Below, one piece after another: positions 1-5,035 of a stretch of DNA of 27,994 nucleotides. The notes beneath the pieces are model-generated. The model saw only the letters and a list, made by a program, of their open reading frames with translations, made no database searches and was not told where the DNA came from. Source of the DNA: a virus. How positions within the stretch are numbered: the stretch's first letter is position 1; each line of letters starts with the position of its first letter. The translations under genes and the position numbers were made by a program. The DNA lies in the IMG/VR virus record IMGVR_UViG_3300005515_000236, positions 1 through 27,994 of that record; one strand, given 5' to 3'.

Positions 1-105
1 CCTTGACTATTTAAATCCAGTACGAAATTAGTTGTTAATTAAAATTAATGTGCGTAGCAACTGTGCAAGTTCCAGTTGCACAACCGAACACAACCACCCG
101 AAACC
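1..105 (+). promoter_or_regulatory. AT-rich leader upstream of the response regulator
   Basis: This stretch is far richer in A and T than the rest of the window, especially bases 8-50, as expected of a promoter region. A TAAAAT hexamer at 40-45 resembles a -10 box, but no good -35 box sits 16-18 bases upstream of it. A TTGACT at 3-8 resembles a -35 box but has no good partner. The leader probably carries the promoter of the regulator gene, but exact elements cannot be assigned. No Shine-Dalgarno sequence is visible before the ATG at 106. Confidence 0.4.
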
Positions 106-831
106 ATGCGAGTCGCCGCAGTCGATGACGATCTGACTCAGCTAGATCTGACCAAGTGCACCTTGAAGGCGATGAACCACCATTGCCACACCTTCACGGA
201 AGGGGCTGCATTGATGAACGAACTGCGCCGCGAATCCTTCGATTTGCTGCTGCTCGATTGGGAGCTTCCCGACATTTCCGGCCCGGACATCGTGCGGTGG
301 GTCAGGGGCAACGTGAAAGAGAACATCCCAATTCTCTTCGTGACCAACCGGCGGGGCGAGCGCAACGTGGTGGAAGGCTTGGGCGTGGGGGCGGACGACT
401 TCATGAGCAAGCCCGTCGGCGTTGCCGAACTGACAGCTCGCATCCAGGCCTTGTTGCGCCGTTCGTATGTTGCGCCTCGCGCCCAGGAAGAAGCGTGGGG
501 CCGCTACCGGTTCATTCCCGCGGCGGCAAGACTCGAGGTTGACGGCAAGGTCGTTCAACTGACCCAGAGGGAGTACGACCTCGCACTCTTTCTCTTCCGG
601 AACATGGGGCGCCTGATCTCGCGCAGACACATGCTGGAAAGCGTTTGGAAGACCAACAACCCCGCGGGAACCGAGTTGATGTCTCGCTCCCTGGACACAC
701 ACGTTTCGCGAGTGAGAACATTGCTGGGATTGCGGCCCGAGAACGGTTATCGCCTCTCAGCAGCCTATGGCCAGGGCTATCGCTTCGAGGCGATCCGCGA
801 CCCCATGAGCGACGCTGGCGCGCTGCCCTGA
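106..831 (+). CDS. OmpR/PhoB-family response regulator
   Basis: This is a two-domain transcription factor of 241 residues, cytoplasmic, expected to be phosphorylated by a partner histidine kinase and then bind DNA. The receiver domain (about 3-118) has the acidic pair D8/D9, phospho-acceptor D51 in LLLLDWELPD, T80 in LFVTN and K102 in MSKP, so all signature residues are present. The C-terminal winged helix (about 130-235) includes LTQREYDLALFLFRN and a late SLDTHVSRVR recognition helix, typical of OmpR-type outputs. A longer reading from TTG at 76 adds ten residues; ATG 106 is preferred because receivers normally begin right at the first beta strand. The sensor kinase downstream is the obvious partner, but a 165-base gap and an internal sigma-54 promoter mean the two need not be one transcript. 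Confidence 0.9.
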   Translation: MRVAAVDDDLTQLDLTKCTLKAMNHHCHTFTEGAALMNELRRESFDLLLLDWELPDISGPDIVRWVRGNVKENIPILFVTNRRGERNVVEGLGVGADDFMSKPVGVAELTARIQALLRRSYVAPRAQEEAWGRYRFIPAAARLEVDGKVVQLTQREYDLALFLFRNMGRLISRRHMLESVWKTNNPAGTELMSRSLDTHVSRVRTLLGLRPENGYRLSAAYGQGYRFEAIRDPMSDAGALP

Positions 832-909
832 AAGACCTCAGCTTTCAATCCTTGCTTCGGCAGAGCCGCCACTGACCGGGACCTGCGCAGCCGTTTTTTG
901 CCGTCCGAA

Positions 910-925
910 TGGCACGAAGCTTGCA
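910..925 (+). promoter_or_regulatory. sigma-54 (RpoN) -24/-12 promoter
   Basis: TGGCACG at 910-916, four bases, then TTGCA at 921-925 matches the RpoN consensus TGGCACG-N4-TTGCW at every specified base. It points toward the sensor kinase; transcription would begin near 936, about 60 bases before the ATG at 997. RpoN promoters need an AAA+ activator bound upstream. The neighbouring regulator is of OmpR type and cannot play that part, so the activator must be encoded elsewhere. The match is seen directly; activity is inferred. Confidence 0.7.
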
Positions 926-996
926 CCCGATATCGCCCACGGGCGAATGTCAGCCTTGCATACAAGATTGGTGCATGAATCTGAACTTTTTGCTCC

Positions 997-3510
997 ATGA
1001 AGGTGCCTGTGTGTCCGACAACGGAAGAACCAGAAAGCCAACCTCACGAGATGGGCTTAGAAAAATACATGCACGAGACATCTCCAAATCCGAAGGTCAG
1101 GCAGCCCTCTCGCCTGAGCACGGTTCGATACATTCGCTGGGTCAGCTGGAGCGGCCTGGCGGTTCTTGCGGTGACGCTGGTCGTCGGGATGGATATTTTT
1201 GGCTTGGTGCGGCAACCCAACCGCATCTTGCAAGACGCACTTGTCGCATCGCAACGCCGCGACGTGCAGCGCAGCGACGTGGTGGTCGTCGCCATCGACG
1301 AAAAAACCGTTTCTGCATTGGGAACCTGGGCTTTTCGCGGCGCGACCCATGCCGAGCTGATCGATCGCATCAGCCAGGATTCGCCGCGGGCGATTGGCCT
1401 GGACCTCCTGTTGACCGACTCGGACGCGCACTCCGCCGACGACGACAAGGCGCTGGCGGCGTCTTTGCGGCAAAGCGGCCGCGTCGTTCTGCCGATGACG
1501 ATGCAAACGTACTACGGAGCCAATCCGCGGACCGTGCAGCCGATCCGCACCTTGGCGACGAGTGCAAATCGGCTGGGCCTCGATCGCCTTCCGGTGGACA
1601 ACGACGGCGTCCTTCGCGACATCTATCTGAGGGAAGGCCTTCGCGATTTCGAACTGGACCACTTCAGTCTCGCCATGCTCCGTGTGGGCGACGCCGCTCG
1701 CTTCTCCCTGCACGTGCCAGGCAGCACCAAGCCGGAAGAGCTTTCTCACGCGCCGCCTTCGGGACAGTGGCTCGACTGGCGGCGCTCGCACAAGCTGATC
1801 GTTCCGTTCGCTGGCCCGCCAGGGCACTTCAACCGCATCTCCTACGTCGATGCGATCAGCGGCTTGCTTCCGCCCGGCACGTTCGACGGCAAGTACGTGC
1901 TGGTGGGCACCACGGCCCCTGAATTGGGTGGCCTCTACGAGGTTCCCGTCGCTGGCGACGACACATTGATGCCCGGTGTCGAGATCAATGCCAACGTGCT
2001 GGACAGCCTGCTTGGCGGGCTCGAGGTAACACCGGCCCCGCTCTGGTTGAACGCGAGCCTGAACGCATCGGCCGTGGTGCTGGCTTTGGTGGGCATGGCT
2101 TTTCTGGAGCCGCTGTTCGCCTTGTTGCTCGCTGGCTCGCTGGCGCTCGGGCTACTGTCGGCCTCCTGGGCCGGATTTGCTTTGCTGCGTTTGCAGTTTG
2201 CTCCGTTTGCCGGGGTGGTGGGCTTGGGCATCGTGTACACGCTATGGAGCTGGAGCCGCCTGAATGCGGCAACGCGCTACCTGATCGACGCGTCCATTCA
2301 TTTGCGCGCGACTGGAAGCATCTCGCAACTGCCCTGCGACCCAACCCGGTCATCGGGTGATTTTCTCGAGCGTCGCATCAGGGCACTGGCGCAAGCCACG
2401 CGCCACTTGCGCGATCTGCATCAGTTCGTGAGCGACAGCCTGAACAGCCTGCCAGACGCAAAGCTGGTGTGCGATCAGCAAGGCCGCGTGCAACTGGCCA
2501 ACGCCGCGGCGGCCCAGTACTTCAACGTGGCCTCCAGCGAGGCATTGAGGAACATGTCGGCGGTCGAGCTCATGCGCGGCGTCCGCTCATCGGAAAACCA
2601 TGAAGCCGTTGTCACGCCCGACTTGCTGGCGCAGCAGCCGACAACGATTGCCGTGTCCGCACGGGACGGCGGCGACCTCGACCTGCTCGTCAAGCGCGCG
2701 CCTTCGCTCAATGCCGACGGGCAGCATGTCGGATGGATCCTCAGCCTTGTCGACGTGACTGAAATGCGCCAGGCCCAGCGGCAACACGAAGATGCGATTC
2801 ATTTTCTGGGCCACGACATGCGCGCGCCGCAGGCCGCCATTCTCACGCTGCTGGAACTCGATCGACACGCGCCGTCGACGATGTCTCCGTTGCAGTTTCG
2901 CGAGCGGATTGCGCGGCACGCGCGCAAGGCGCTGTCATTGTCGGAGGGGTTCATTCAACTGGCACGGGCGCGGTCGCAGCCCTATCGCCTGGAGGTCCGC
3001 AACCTGGCTTCCATCTTGCTCGAATGCATCGACGACACCTGGGAAGCGCGCCGCCGCAGCCAGGTCCAGGTGATCGTGGATTCAAGCAGCGCGGCCGAAG
3101 CGTTCTGCCGGGTTGAACCCAATCTGGTCGCGCGCGCGATCGACAATCTCTTGGGCAATGCAATCGAACATTCGCCGCCGCACTCGACGATCATCTGCGC
3201 CGTCGAGCAGCATCAGGACGGCTGCGCCATCCGCATCCAGGACCAGGGGCCGGGCATCGGCAAGGACAAGCAGGCTGCAATTTTCGAGACTTTTGAAAGA
3301 GGCGGAAGCGCGCGCAGCCGAGCCCATGGTGCCGGGCTGGGACTGGCGGTGGTCAAGACAGTTGCCGCTCGCCACGGCGGACGGGTGGTGCTTGAAAGCG
3401 CCGCGGGGTCCGGCTGCACTTTCAGGTTTGTTCTACCAGCGTCGCCGGGATGCTGCCAGCGCCCTTCGGCAGTTCCAGCGCCGGAGAAGCTGGCGCTCGA
3501 TATCTTGTAG
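997..3510 (+). CDS. CHASE2-domain sensor histidine kinase
   Basis: This inner-membrane sensor kinase of 837 residues would phosphorylate a response regulator, most simply the one upstream. A first membrane helix lies near residues 50-70. A CHASE2 extracytoplasmic sensor follows (about 75-345; it includes VVVVAIDEKTV and GKYVLVGTTA), then three closely packed membrane helices (about 355-430, rich in Leu, Ala and Gly). Next come a PAS-like segment (about 480-595), a HisKA box with H606 in FLGHDMRAP, and a HATPase domain with N717 in the N-box NLLGNAIEH, DQGPGIG and GAGLGLAVV. All catalytic boxes are intact. The start is uncertain: ATG 997 has no clear ribosome-binding site, and ATGs at 1051 and 1069 are also possible without losing a domain. 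A sigma-54 promoter lies upstream and a strong terminator follows. Confidence 0.9.
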   Translation: MKVPVCPTTEEPESQPHEMGLEKYMHETSPNPKVRQPSRLSTVRYIRWVSWSGLAVLAVTLVVGMDIFGLVRQPNRILQDALVASQRRDVQRSDVVVVAIDEKTVSALGTWAFRGATHAELIDRISQDSPRAIGLDLLLTDSDAHSADDDKALAASLRQSGRVVLPMTMQTYYGANPRTVQPIRTLATSANRLGLDRLPVDNDGVLRDIYLREGLRDFELDHFSLAMLRVGDAARFSLHVPGSTKPEELSHAPPSGQWLDWRRSHKLIVPFAGPPGHFNRISYVDAISGLLPPGTFDGKYVLVGTTAPELGGLYEVPVAGDDTLMPGVEINANVLDSLLGGLEVTPAPLWLNASLNASAVVLALVGMAFLEPLFALLLAGSLALGLLSASWAGFALLRLQFAPFAGVVGLGIVYTLWSWSRLNAATRYLIDASIHLRATGSISQLPCDPTRSSGDFLERRIRALAQATRHLRDLHQFVSDSLNSLPDAKLVCDQQGRVQLANAAAAQYFNVASSEALRNMSAVELMRGVRSSENHEAVVTPDLLAQQPTTIAVSARDGGDLDLLVKRAPSLNADGQHVGWILSLVDVTEMRQAQRQHEDAIHFLGHDMRAPQAAILTLLELDRHAPSTMSPLQFRERIARHARKALSLSEGFIQLARARSQPYRLEVRNLASILLECIDDTWEARRRSQVQVIVDSSSAAEAFCRVEPNLVARAIDNLLGNAIEHSPPHSTIICAVEQHQDGCAIRIQDQGPGIGKDKQAAIFETFERGGSARSRAHGAGLGLAVVKTVAARHGGRVVLESAAGSGCTFRFVLPASPGCCQRPSAVPAPEKLALDIL

Positions 3511-3554
3511 AAAGAAGCCTTTTGAGACCCTTGCACGGCAAGGGAGAGCCAATG

Positions 3555-3582
3555 AAAAACGGCCCCGTGAAGGGCCGTTTTT
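3555..3582 (+). terminator. Rho-independent terminator, probably bidirectional
   Basis: ACGGCCC (3559-3565) pairs perfectly with GGGCCGT (3572-3578) around a six-base loop. Five A bases precede the stem and five T bases end it, so the A:U arms extend the stem to 11 pairs. The U-run serves the kinase transcript on the + strand. The A-run can serve as a U-run on the minus strand, so it could also stop late phage transcripts leaving Rz. Confidence 0.85.
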
Positions 3583-3739
3583 ACTTGCTAGCTGGCGGAA
3601 CCGGAGGGAGCGGGGAACCCTTTGAAATCAAGGCCTTAGGTAGGCTGTGCCATGTTCCGTACCCTGGTTGCCGAGAGATCGAGGATTCGAACGGCCTGGC
3701 GGGATTCCAATGGTCGATGCAGGTCTTGCCCCTGCGATC
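3583..3739. other. Chromosome-phage junction region, no gene
   Basis: This 157-base stretch separates the kinase terminator from the last phage gene, so the attachment site should be here. It holds a short stem-loop, GCAGG (3719-3723) with CCTGC (3731-3735), just beyond the Rz stop. It also holds GCCTTAGG (3633-3640), repeated inverted as CCTAAGGC (3739-3746). I looked for a tRNA or tmRNA 3' end because of the GGATTCGAAC string at 3682-3691, but no T-stem or acceptor pairs around it. The att core cannot be defined without the other end of the element. Confidence 0.45.
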
Positions 3740-4219
3740 CTAAGGCGTCAGCGCGTCGTAGGTACGCTGGCAGATGGTGCCGGCAGCCCCTCGCTCTCCA
3801 GCAAGGCGCGCCAGGTCTTCCGATCTCTGCTCAAGGCGGCCGAACACGTCGGCAAACACCATGAGGGGGTCTCCGGCTGGCGCGCCTGCGGCGGCAGCGG
3901 AGGGATTCGGGCAGGCTCGACGGATGTAGCGGATGGCGGGCTGCTGCAGCCGGCTGTCAGGCAGAGTAGCAGCGTCGCGAGCTTCAGCCTGGATGAGGGG
4001 TTGGGCATTGGTGACCTCCTTGGCGACGGCCGCAGTGCGGCGCTGTTCTTCGGTGCGCTGGGCGCGGTCGGCGAGCATGCGGGCCTCGGCCGCGGCGGCG
4101 CGCTGGTCGGCCGCATCCTTCTGCAGATCGGCCACGCGCAGGGTCTGCACGCCCAGCAGCGCCAGCAGGAGGCCGACGAGCAGCAGCTTCCAGTTGGCCA
4201 GCAGCCAGGTCAGCGGCAC
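3740..4219 (-). CDS. Rz: Rz-type i-spanin (inner-membrane spanin)
   Basis: The product is the inner-membrane half of the spanin pair that fuses inner and outer membranes in the last step of lysis. From GTG 4219 it is about 159 residues. It has an N-terminal membrane anchor (about 9-27, WKLLLVGLLLALLGVQ), then a long charged, Ala-rich helical periplasmic region from about 30, with a paired-Cys C-terminal part. The frame extends to GTG 4234, but GGAGG at 4228-4232 lies eight bases before GTG 4219, which I prefer. It follows endolysin and a zinc-knuckle micro-gene, and contains Rz1 in another frame. That arrangement and the anchor identify it although Rz proteins share little sequence. Confidence 0.85.
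   Translation of the reverse strand: MPLTWLLANWKLLLVGLLLALLGVQTLRVADLQKDAADQRAAAAEARMLADRAQRTEEQRRTAAVAKEVTNAQPLIQAEARDAATLPDSRLQQPAIRYIRRACPNPSAAAAGAPAGDPLMVFADVFGRLEQRSEDLARLAGERGAAGTICQRTYDALTP
3748..4008 (-). CDS. Rz1: Rz1-type o-spanin lipoprotein embedded in Rz
   Basis: This 86-residue outer-membrane lipoprotein is read in a different frame wholly inside Rz. It begins with a short positive segment and a hydrophobic stretch ending in the lipobox LTAGC, so Cys21 should be lipidated after signal peptidase II cleavage. The mature part is Pro-rich (PPLPPQARQPETP), as is usual for Rz1. The start at ATG 4008 is strongly supported by AAGGAGGT five bases upstream. It would bind the C-terminus of Rz across the periplasm. 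It ends eight bases before the Rz stop, giving the fully nested layout known from lambda. Confidence 0.85.
   Translation of the reverse strand: MPNPSSRLKLATLLLCLTAGCSSPPSATSVEPARIPPLPPQARQPETPSWCLPTCSAALSRDRKTWRALLESEGLPAPSASVPTTR
4014..4021 (-). promoter_or_regulatory. Consensus Shine-Dalgarno for Rz1 inside Rz
   Basis: The minus strand reads AAGGAGGT five bases before the Rz1 ATG at 4008. This is the full anti-16S complement, stronger than that of almost any other gene here, although it lies within Rz coding sequence (codons for a KEVT segment). It decides the Rz1 start. Confidence 0.85.
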
Positions 4220-4293
4220 AGCTTGAGCCTCCACAGCTCGCGCGGGCAGTTAGCCGCGGTGTGGCCTTCCATGCCGCAGGCCACGCACCTCAT
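4210..4293 (-). CDS. CCHC zinc-knuckle micro-protein in the lysis cassette
   Basis: This 27-residue frame starts at ATG 4293, overlapping the endolysin stop in an ATGA, and ends at TGA 4210 inside the beginning of Rz. It contains CVACGMEGHTAANC, an exact CX2CX4HX4C zinc knuckle, the motif found in retroviral nucleocapsids and other single-stranded nucleic-acid binders. A basic tail rich in Arg and Lys follows. The 4-base overlap gives translational coupling, but I see no strong ribosome site of its own. Its function is unknown; nucleic-acid or zinc binding is what the motif suggests. It could be an accidental frame, yet an exact knuckle in a frame that fits the junction on both sides argues for a real gene. 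Confidence 0.6.
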   Translation of the reverse strand: MRCVACGMEGHTAANCPRELWRLKLCR

Positions 4294-4808
4294 GCCGATT
4301 CCGCCAGGGTCAGGCACCAGTTGGCCTCGTACTGGCGCCGGTTCTGCAGTCCGCGCACGAAGACCCCGGCGGCATAGCTCCACACCGGCCGGCCGTCGGG
4401 CCCGCGCGCCAGCGCCTTGCATGCCGCCTCGCGGTTGCCGTTGCGCATGAGCTGCGCCGCGCGCGACGCGCACGCGCCCTGCTTGCCGACGTTGATCGCG
4501 AACAGCGTGAAGGCGTCCAGGCTGTTCTGGTCGAACCTGTCGGCGGGGATGCACTCGAGGATGGCCCGCCCGAAGTCGCTGGCGGTCTGCTGGTCGATCG
4601 CATCGCACTGCGCCTGCGTCAGGTGCTGGCCCACCGGGCGCGGCGGCTGCGTGCGGCCGCTGCAGTATGTCGGCAGGCCATTGGCCAGCTTGTCGGCATA
4701 GACGGTCAGGCGCTGGTCTTCCCAGCGGTGCATCGCACCGAGCAGCGCGGCACTGCCCAGCACCAAGGGGGCCACGATCTTTACAGCAAGTTGGGCCCGC
4801 TCGTTCAC
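4290..4808 (-). CDS. SAR endolysin, GH24 lysozyme family
   Basis: This muramidase of 172 residues cleaves the glycan strands of peptidoglycan during lysis. The N-terminus (about 7-25) is a weakly hydrophobic Ala/Gly/Leu/Val helix typical of signal-arrest-release endolysins, which are first tethered to the membrane and then released when the holin depolarises it. The catalytic part follows at once: E30 in HRWEDQR, D39 eight residues later, and T47 in GLPTYCSGRT, matching the Glu-Asp-Thr triad of T4-type lysozymes with a two-residue insertion. C49 and later Cys residues may allow disulfide control. It starts at GTG 4808, with the GTG overlapping the holin stop (GTGA) and GGGAG seven bases upstream. 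Confidence 0.85.
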   Translation of the reverse strand: MNERAQLAVKIVAPLVLGSAALLGAMHRWEDQRLTVYADKLANGLPTYCSGRTQPPRPVGQHLTQAQCDAIDQQTASDFGRAILECIPADRFDQNSLDAFTLFAINVGKQGACASRAAQLMRNGNREAACKALARGPDGRPVWSYAAGVFVRGLQNRRQYEANWCLTLAESA

Positions 4809-5035
4809 GTCAGATCTCCCGGCTTGGTGAAATCGCCCTTCGCCCACCGCTTCAAGCGTTGCCCCCACTCCGTCTCTTCGCGCCACCACTTGCGCATGAG
4901 GTAGGCGATCTGGAGCACCACGAGCACGCCGGTCAGGAACCCCGTCCAGCTGATCTGCGAGTACCAGGCAATGCCGCTGGCCGGCGCCGTTCGGACCGCC
5001 AGCTCCACCGCGATGTCTTTCAGTTCTTGCTTCAT
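4805..5035 (-). CDS. Putative holin, T7-like, one clear membrane helix
   Basis: This 76-residue membrane protein lies immediately upstream of the endolysin. One strong hydrophobic helix spans about 31-48 (WTGFLTGVLVVLQIAYLM), followed by a basic, Trp-rich cytoplasmic tail (RKWWREE). A weaker hydrophobic stretch lies at about 10-25. Size, layout and the VLQIAYL segment resemble small class II or class III phage holins of the T7 type, which set lysis time and here would release the SAR endolysin. The start ATG 5035 overlaps the previous stop in ATGA. The call rests on position and topology, not on a conserved motif. Confidence 0.75.
   Translation of the reverse strand: MKQELKDIAVELAVRTAPASGIAWYSQISWTGFLTGVLVVLQIAYLMRKWWREETEWGQRLKRWAKGDFTKPGDLT

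Follow-up and report, generated by a model that had tools for sequence, protein, structure and literature searches.

The two genes of a two-component pair commonly share one promoter, and at sigma-54 promoters transcription starts at a fixed spacing, about 12 nt past the C of the -12 element. The sigma-54 consensus is given as TGGCAC-N5-7-TTGCT, and the same source names ntrC-ntrB and ntrY-ntrX as sensor-kinase genes with predicted sigma-54 promoters (PMC12316311). In this work, a candidate sigma-54 promoter was analysed that precedes the kinase gene of a PhoB/OmpR-type pair, the regulator of which is itself no RpoN activator. The proposed arrangement is similar to ntrC-ntrB and ntrY-ntrX in that a sensor kinase gene would be under sigma-54 control, but sensor and regulator are described as made together there, whereas the site described here lies before the kinase only (PMC12316311).

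The window, i.e., the whole analysed stretch of 27,994 bases from a virus record, consists of bacterial DNA from position 1 to about 3,600. Contig L002 of Variovorax paradoxus aligns with window positions 4-3609 at 91% identity, and phage genes (spanin-type, tail, coat, portal, and P22-kind terminase) follow on the other strand from position 3740. The site at 910-925 belongs to the Variovorax-like bacterial flank of a P22-like prophage. The left prophage boundary is at about 3609-3621, where the match with V. paradoxus ends; by eye, L002 continues there into a tRNA-Ser gene, and the prophage seems to be inserted at the 3' end of this gene. The flank encodes on the plus strand an OmpR/PhoB-type response regulator (106-831; PF00072, Response_reg, and PF00486, Trans_reg_C) and a CHASE2-PAS-HATPase sensor histidine kinase (1069-3510; PF05226, PF00989, and PF02518). 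The best NCBIfam matches of the pair were PhoB-like for the regulator and PnpS/PhoR-like for the kinase, both far under the cut-offs. The regulator is 95% identical to that of V. paradoxus L002 and 76-79% identical to those of the genomes G027, G051, G032, G015, and G002. A terminator-like hairpin was noticed by eye after the kinase gene at 3554-3582. No relatives were found in the viral_contigs set, the Rfam search gave 0 matches, and the literature search returned no report on the kinase locus.

The sigma-54 (-24/-12) element TGGCACGAAGCTTGCA occupies positions 910-925 of the plus strand, within the 237-nt gap between the regulator stop and the kinase gene, with GG at 911-912 and GC at 923-924. 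The initial annotation had described it as a match to every defined base of the RpoN consensus, which was borne out: the element has 0 mismatches to TGGCACG-N4-TTGCW and was the only match in the window when at most one mismatch was allowed, the mean for shuffled sequences being 0.46. It also has the GG(-24)/GC(-12) pair, with ten bases between, inside TGGCAC-N5-TTGC. With a hand-made scoring matrix, the box gets the maximum score. Among 20,000 shuffled versions of the 237-nt gap, none scored as high, and 0.03% scored at least as high as the weaker V. paradoxus copy. The spacing rule places the predicted transcription start at position 936 (plus strand), 12 nt after the -12 C. No sigma-70-type promoter was found in 1-5000. 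Like sigma-54 (RpoN) promoters in general, 910-925 has all consensus letters, the spacing, and an intergenic position, and rpoN is present in near relatives; it differs from known sigma-54 promoters in that no enhancer site or cognate activator was found for it.

The locus was compared over 33 rows, in 18 of which the regulator lies upstream; 16 distinct loci were left after dropping the duplicates L080 (= L002) and L084 (= L003), and the 15 rows lacking a P0001-like regulator were left out of the box scoring. The box was present in four of the 16 loci, namely the window, V. paradoxus G001, G027, and G051, with scores of at least 15.8, and the other 12 loci, including G015 and G002, scored at most 12.8. 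In a set of 74 rows (L004-L077), the 11 loci with a regulator up to 1.5 kb upstream all scored at most 8.8. The kinases of the three related carriers are 93% (V. paradoxus G001), 65% (G027), and 64% (G051) identical to that of the window. A further carrier is G032, in which the kinase match breaks off at about residue 122, where unrelated sequence that looks IS-like by eye takes over (L250 8072-8332), and the regulator is 78% identical; both the box and the palindrome described below are intact there despite the truncated kinase. The box reads GGGCACGAAGCTTGCA in V. paradoxus (G001), TGGCACGCAGCTTGCA in G027 and G051, and TGGCACGTAGCTTGCG in G032, so that the first T is lost in V. paradoxus and the last W in G032. 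Conservation of the GG and GC dinucleotides among relatives, which the initial annotation had proposed as a check, held in all five carriers (window, G001, G027, G051, and G032); the box was absent in both G015 and G002, which have 60% identical kinases and are the nearest non-carriers.

By aligning the four carrier loci, 14 of the 15 box columns were found to be invariant, as against 75 of 202 in the remainder of 832-1068 (Fisher p ~2e-5), and the window compared with G027 alone gave 14/15 identical positions in the box and 95/202 in the remaining gap. The kinase tree groups the window with V. paradoxus, G027, and G051 (100/99) and places G002 and G015 next to this group. Because the kinases of G027 and G051 are 97% identical, there are about three independent carrier lineages. 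The regulator tree with G032 included did not resolve gain versus loss of the box. When box and palindrome were combined in a gapped pattern, it matched four of 101 genus genomes (G001, G027, G051, and G032) and its reversed control none. A stricter pattern matched two genomes, G001 and G051, among 399 from the family, in a sample that lacked some genus members. This lineage-limited distribution had been missed by the initial annotation, as had the palindrome at 951-970 and the later start codon of the kinase.

The perfect consensus occurs 20 times in five Variovorax genomes, compared with seven matches for the reversed pattern, and some perfect matches are therefore expected by chance. That the match at 910-925 is itself such a coincidence is nevertheless highly improbable, since the box is found at the same place in the window, G001, G027, G051, and G032, and since none of the shuffles reached its score. 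By a simple ORF filter, 12 of the 20 perfect sites fell outside genes and ahead of a start. When the filter was combined with reading of the flanks, 17 sites lay just 5' of a gene start (two of them, L119 and L124, at the kinase locus), two probably did so (L115 and L127, ahead of a binding-protein gene), and one (L125) lay inside a gene. The filter had called L110, L114, and L118 intragenic due to starts that extended too far; these were reassigned by eye to positions ahead of an rpoN-type gene, an amidase-like gene, and another gene, respectively. Representative targets identified by profile were an NMT1_2 binding protein, a NirB-like nitrite reductase, a Peripla_BP_6 binding protein, and a flavodoxin-fold protein, and the target transporters are inferred to serve nitrate or urea. 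Perfect sites in the genus are thus usually promoter-placed, and several of the targets fit nitrogen control. Two rpoN-type genes each were found in the carrier G001 and in the non-carrier G002. Taken on sequence evidence, a real, lineage-restricted sigma-54 promoter at 910-925 is the most likely reading. As a separate observation, the perfect site L110 (1501-1516) is located 42 nt before the ATG of a V. paradoxus rpoN-type gene, beside an activator gene, and self-control of RpoN is possible there.

The search for activators with PF00158 gave 50 strong matches in the five genomes, none of them closer than 10 kb to the locus. When these were clustered, no activator family was shared by G001, G027, and G051 and missing from both G015 and G002; three of the 50 rows (L191, L210, and L217) were apparently in the wrong frame and stayed singletons. 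The motif GGTGC-N3-GCAC is found about 120 nt 5' of the box at three NMT1_2-type genes. Upstream activator sites, for which a search had been suggested at the outset, did not appear at the kinase: neither this motif nor NtrC-like dyads occurred in the 400 nt upstream of the four carrier loci. NtrC as the activator of the kinase promoter is a guess.

The initial annotation had placed the box about 60 bases before the kinase on the same strand. The strand is correct, but the distance assumes the ATG at 997, where the kinase reading frame opens. The kinase match in V. paradoxus starts only at residue 20 and is preceded by a frame shift. The start was moved from 997 to 1069 because ATGCAC, at 1069 in the window, is the first in-frame ATG common to the four carriers, and 1069 is the more likely start by this frame comparison. 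With this start, the kinase would lie about 144 nt downstream of the box and about 133 nt downstream of the predicted transcription start. The intervening leader includes a conserved block, GAATCTGAAC, at 977-986 (plus strand, from the carrier alignments). A very short putative reading frame of 9-10 codons at 972-1000 is present in four carriers, starting with GTG at 972 in the window and with ATG in G027 and G051; it is unlikely to be a conserved leader reading frame, as its stop codon, by eye, is lost in G032.

Regulator and kinase lie on the same strand, and no terminator-like site was found in 832-910, so read-through from the regulator gene is possible, and RpoN control of the kinase may not be exclusive. 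The kinase could be mainly co-transcribed with the regulator, with the sigma-54 site acting as a minor or relic internal promoter. Relatives lacking the site have shorter gaps (31 nt in G015) and presumably use read-through. On the other hand, the gaps of the carriers are longer (238-326 nt), and the box and palindrome were selectively conserved while the gap diverged, which makes predominant co-transcription unlikely. The claim that the kinase but not the regulator has an RpoN site is supported in so far as no sigma-54-like site was found within up to 300 nt 5' of the regulator gene at 11 loci (for the window, in the 105 nt available).

The second conserved element is a palindromic operator candidate, CAGCCTTGCATACAAGATTG, at 951-970, which begins with CAGYCTTGCATACAAG (951-966) about 16 nt past the predicted start and has the core CTTGCATACAAG at 955-966. 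In the four-way alignment, 17 of its 20 columns (Fisher p ~4e-5 vs the remaining gap) and all 12 core columns are invariant, and the core is also present in G032. The five genomes hold eight copies of CTTGCATACAAG, compared with one of the reversed pattern; three of these are at the kinase locus, and each of the five genomes has one further copy just 5' of the dicarboxylate-uptake gene dctA. The identity of dctA was checked with NF009587 on two genes and with PF00375 on three of the five, all of which matched. At the Variovorax dctA promoter (L239, L240, L243, L244, and L245), the 12-bp palindrome CTTGYATRCAAG lies shortly ahead of the gene, as it does at the kinase; dctA differs in having a GGGAATACCC element and no sigma-54 box. 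The dctA copies of the core occur in both orientations, and conserved CTTGCCTACATT and CTTGCATTCAA-like blocks flank the palindrome there, a pattern that fits a symmetric protein site. The wider set CTTGYATRCAAG added one site, apparently intragenic, and was hardly more frequent than the reversed control, so the case for the palindrome rests on its conservation and position. An RNA hairpin at 951-970 was rejected as the main reading, given that the fold was predicted in G027, G051, and G032 and not in the window or V. paradoxus, and that the core occurs in either orientation at dctA. The MatR operator site is TCTTGTATACAAGA. The general palindromic consensus of GntR/FadR-type operators (PMC4494728) resembles 951-970 in being a short A/T-centred dyad; in those systems a GntR protein binds, whereas no GntR protein was linked to this locus. 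No report on the palindrome, and no bacterial paper for it, was returned by the literature search; such papers as came up for it do not, judging by their titles, deal with bacterial promoters. Its conservation and the copies of its core at dctA suggest a second, operator-type control of the kinase at this candidate site.

In a different reading of the conserved region, the whole block 911-970 binds a regulator, e.g., at two CTTGCA sites about 36 nt apart, and resembles a sigma-54 site only by coincidence. In its favour, conservation reaches past the sigma-54 consensus to three of the four spacer bases (AGC), the palindrome contains CTTGCA again, and dctA has several CTTGC copies without a sigma-54 box. 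However, the invariant letters cover all of GGCACG and TTGC at the sigma-54 spacing, dctA has the palindrome but no GGCACG-N4-TTGC (best score 6.9), and most of the perfect sites in the genus lie where promoters would be; we consider this reading quite unlikely. As a side observation, the dctA promoters of the five genomes have GGGAATACCC, TCTTGCCTACATT, CTTGYATRCAAG, and CTTGCATTCAA-like blocks in common.

We hypothesize that a working sigma-54 promoter at 910-925 gives the CHASE2 kinase its own transcript, and, judged from the sequence comparisons, this full explanation is the best one and probably correct. The promoter, switched on by some unlinked enhancer-binding activator, would drive a separate kinase transcript that begins near 936 and has a leader of about 133 nt. 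The regulator gene would be transcribed from a separate promoter that is not of the sigma-54 type. Basal kinase may come from read-through out of the regulator gene, and the sigma-54 promoter would then raise the kinase:regulator ratio on a nutrient signal, the best guess for which is nitrogen status. A dimeric DNA-binding protein, also acting at dctA, probably binds 951-970 and may block or tune the promoter. It would mean that kinase supply in a few Variovorax is probably set by nutrient signals. A promoter that raises the kinase alone would turn kinase dosage into a regulated signal, and the possible tie to nitrogen activators and to the site common with dctA would connect CHASE2 sensing to nutrition. 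In its most specific form, sigma-54 would switch the kinase on and the dctA regulator would hold it back, so that the ratio of the PhoB-type pair follows the nitrogen and C4-dicarboxylate state; this form is conceivable and is put forward only tentatively. A direct repeat of 10 bp (TGACAnTnT followed by TGAc/g) that is conserved ahead of the regulator gene was seen by eye at about 2890-2912 of L002 and in L081-L084, and it is a possible self-control box.
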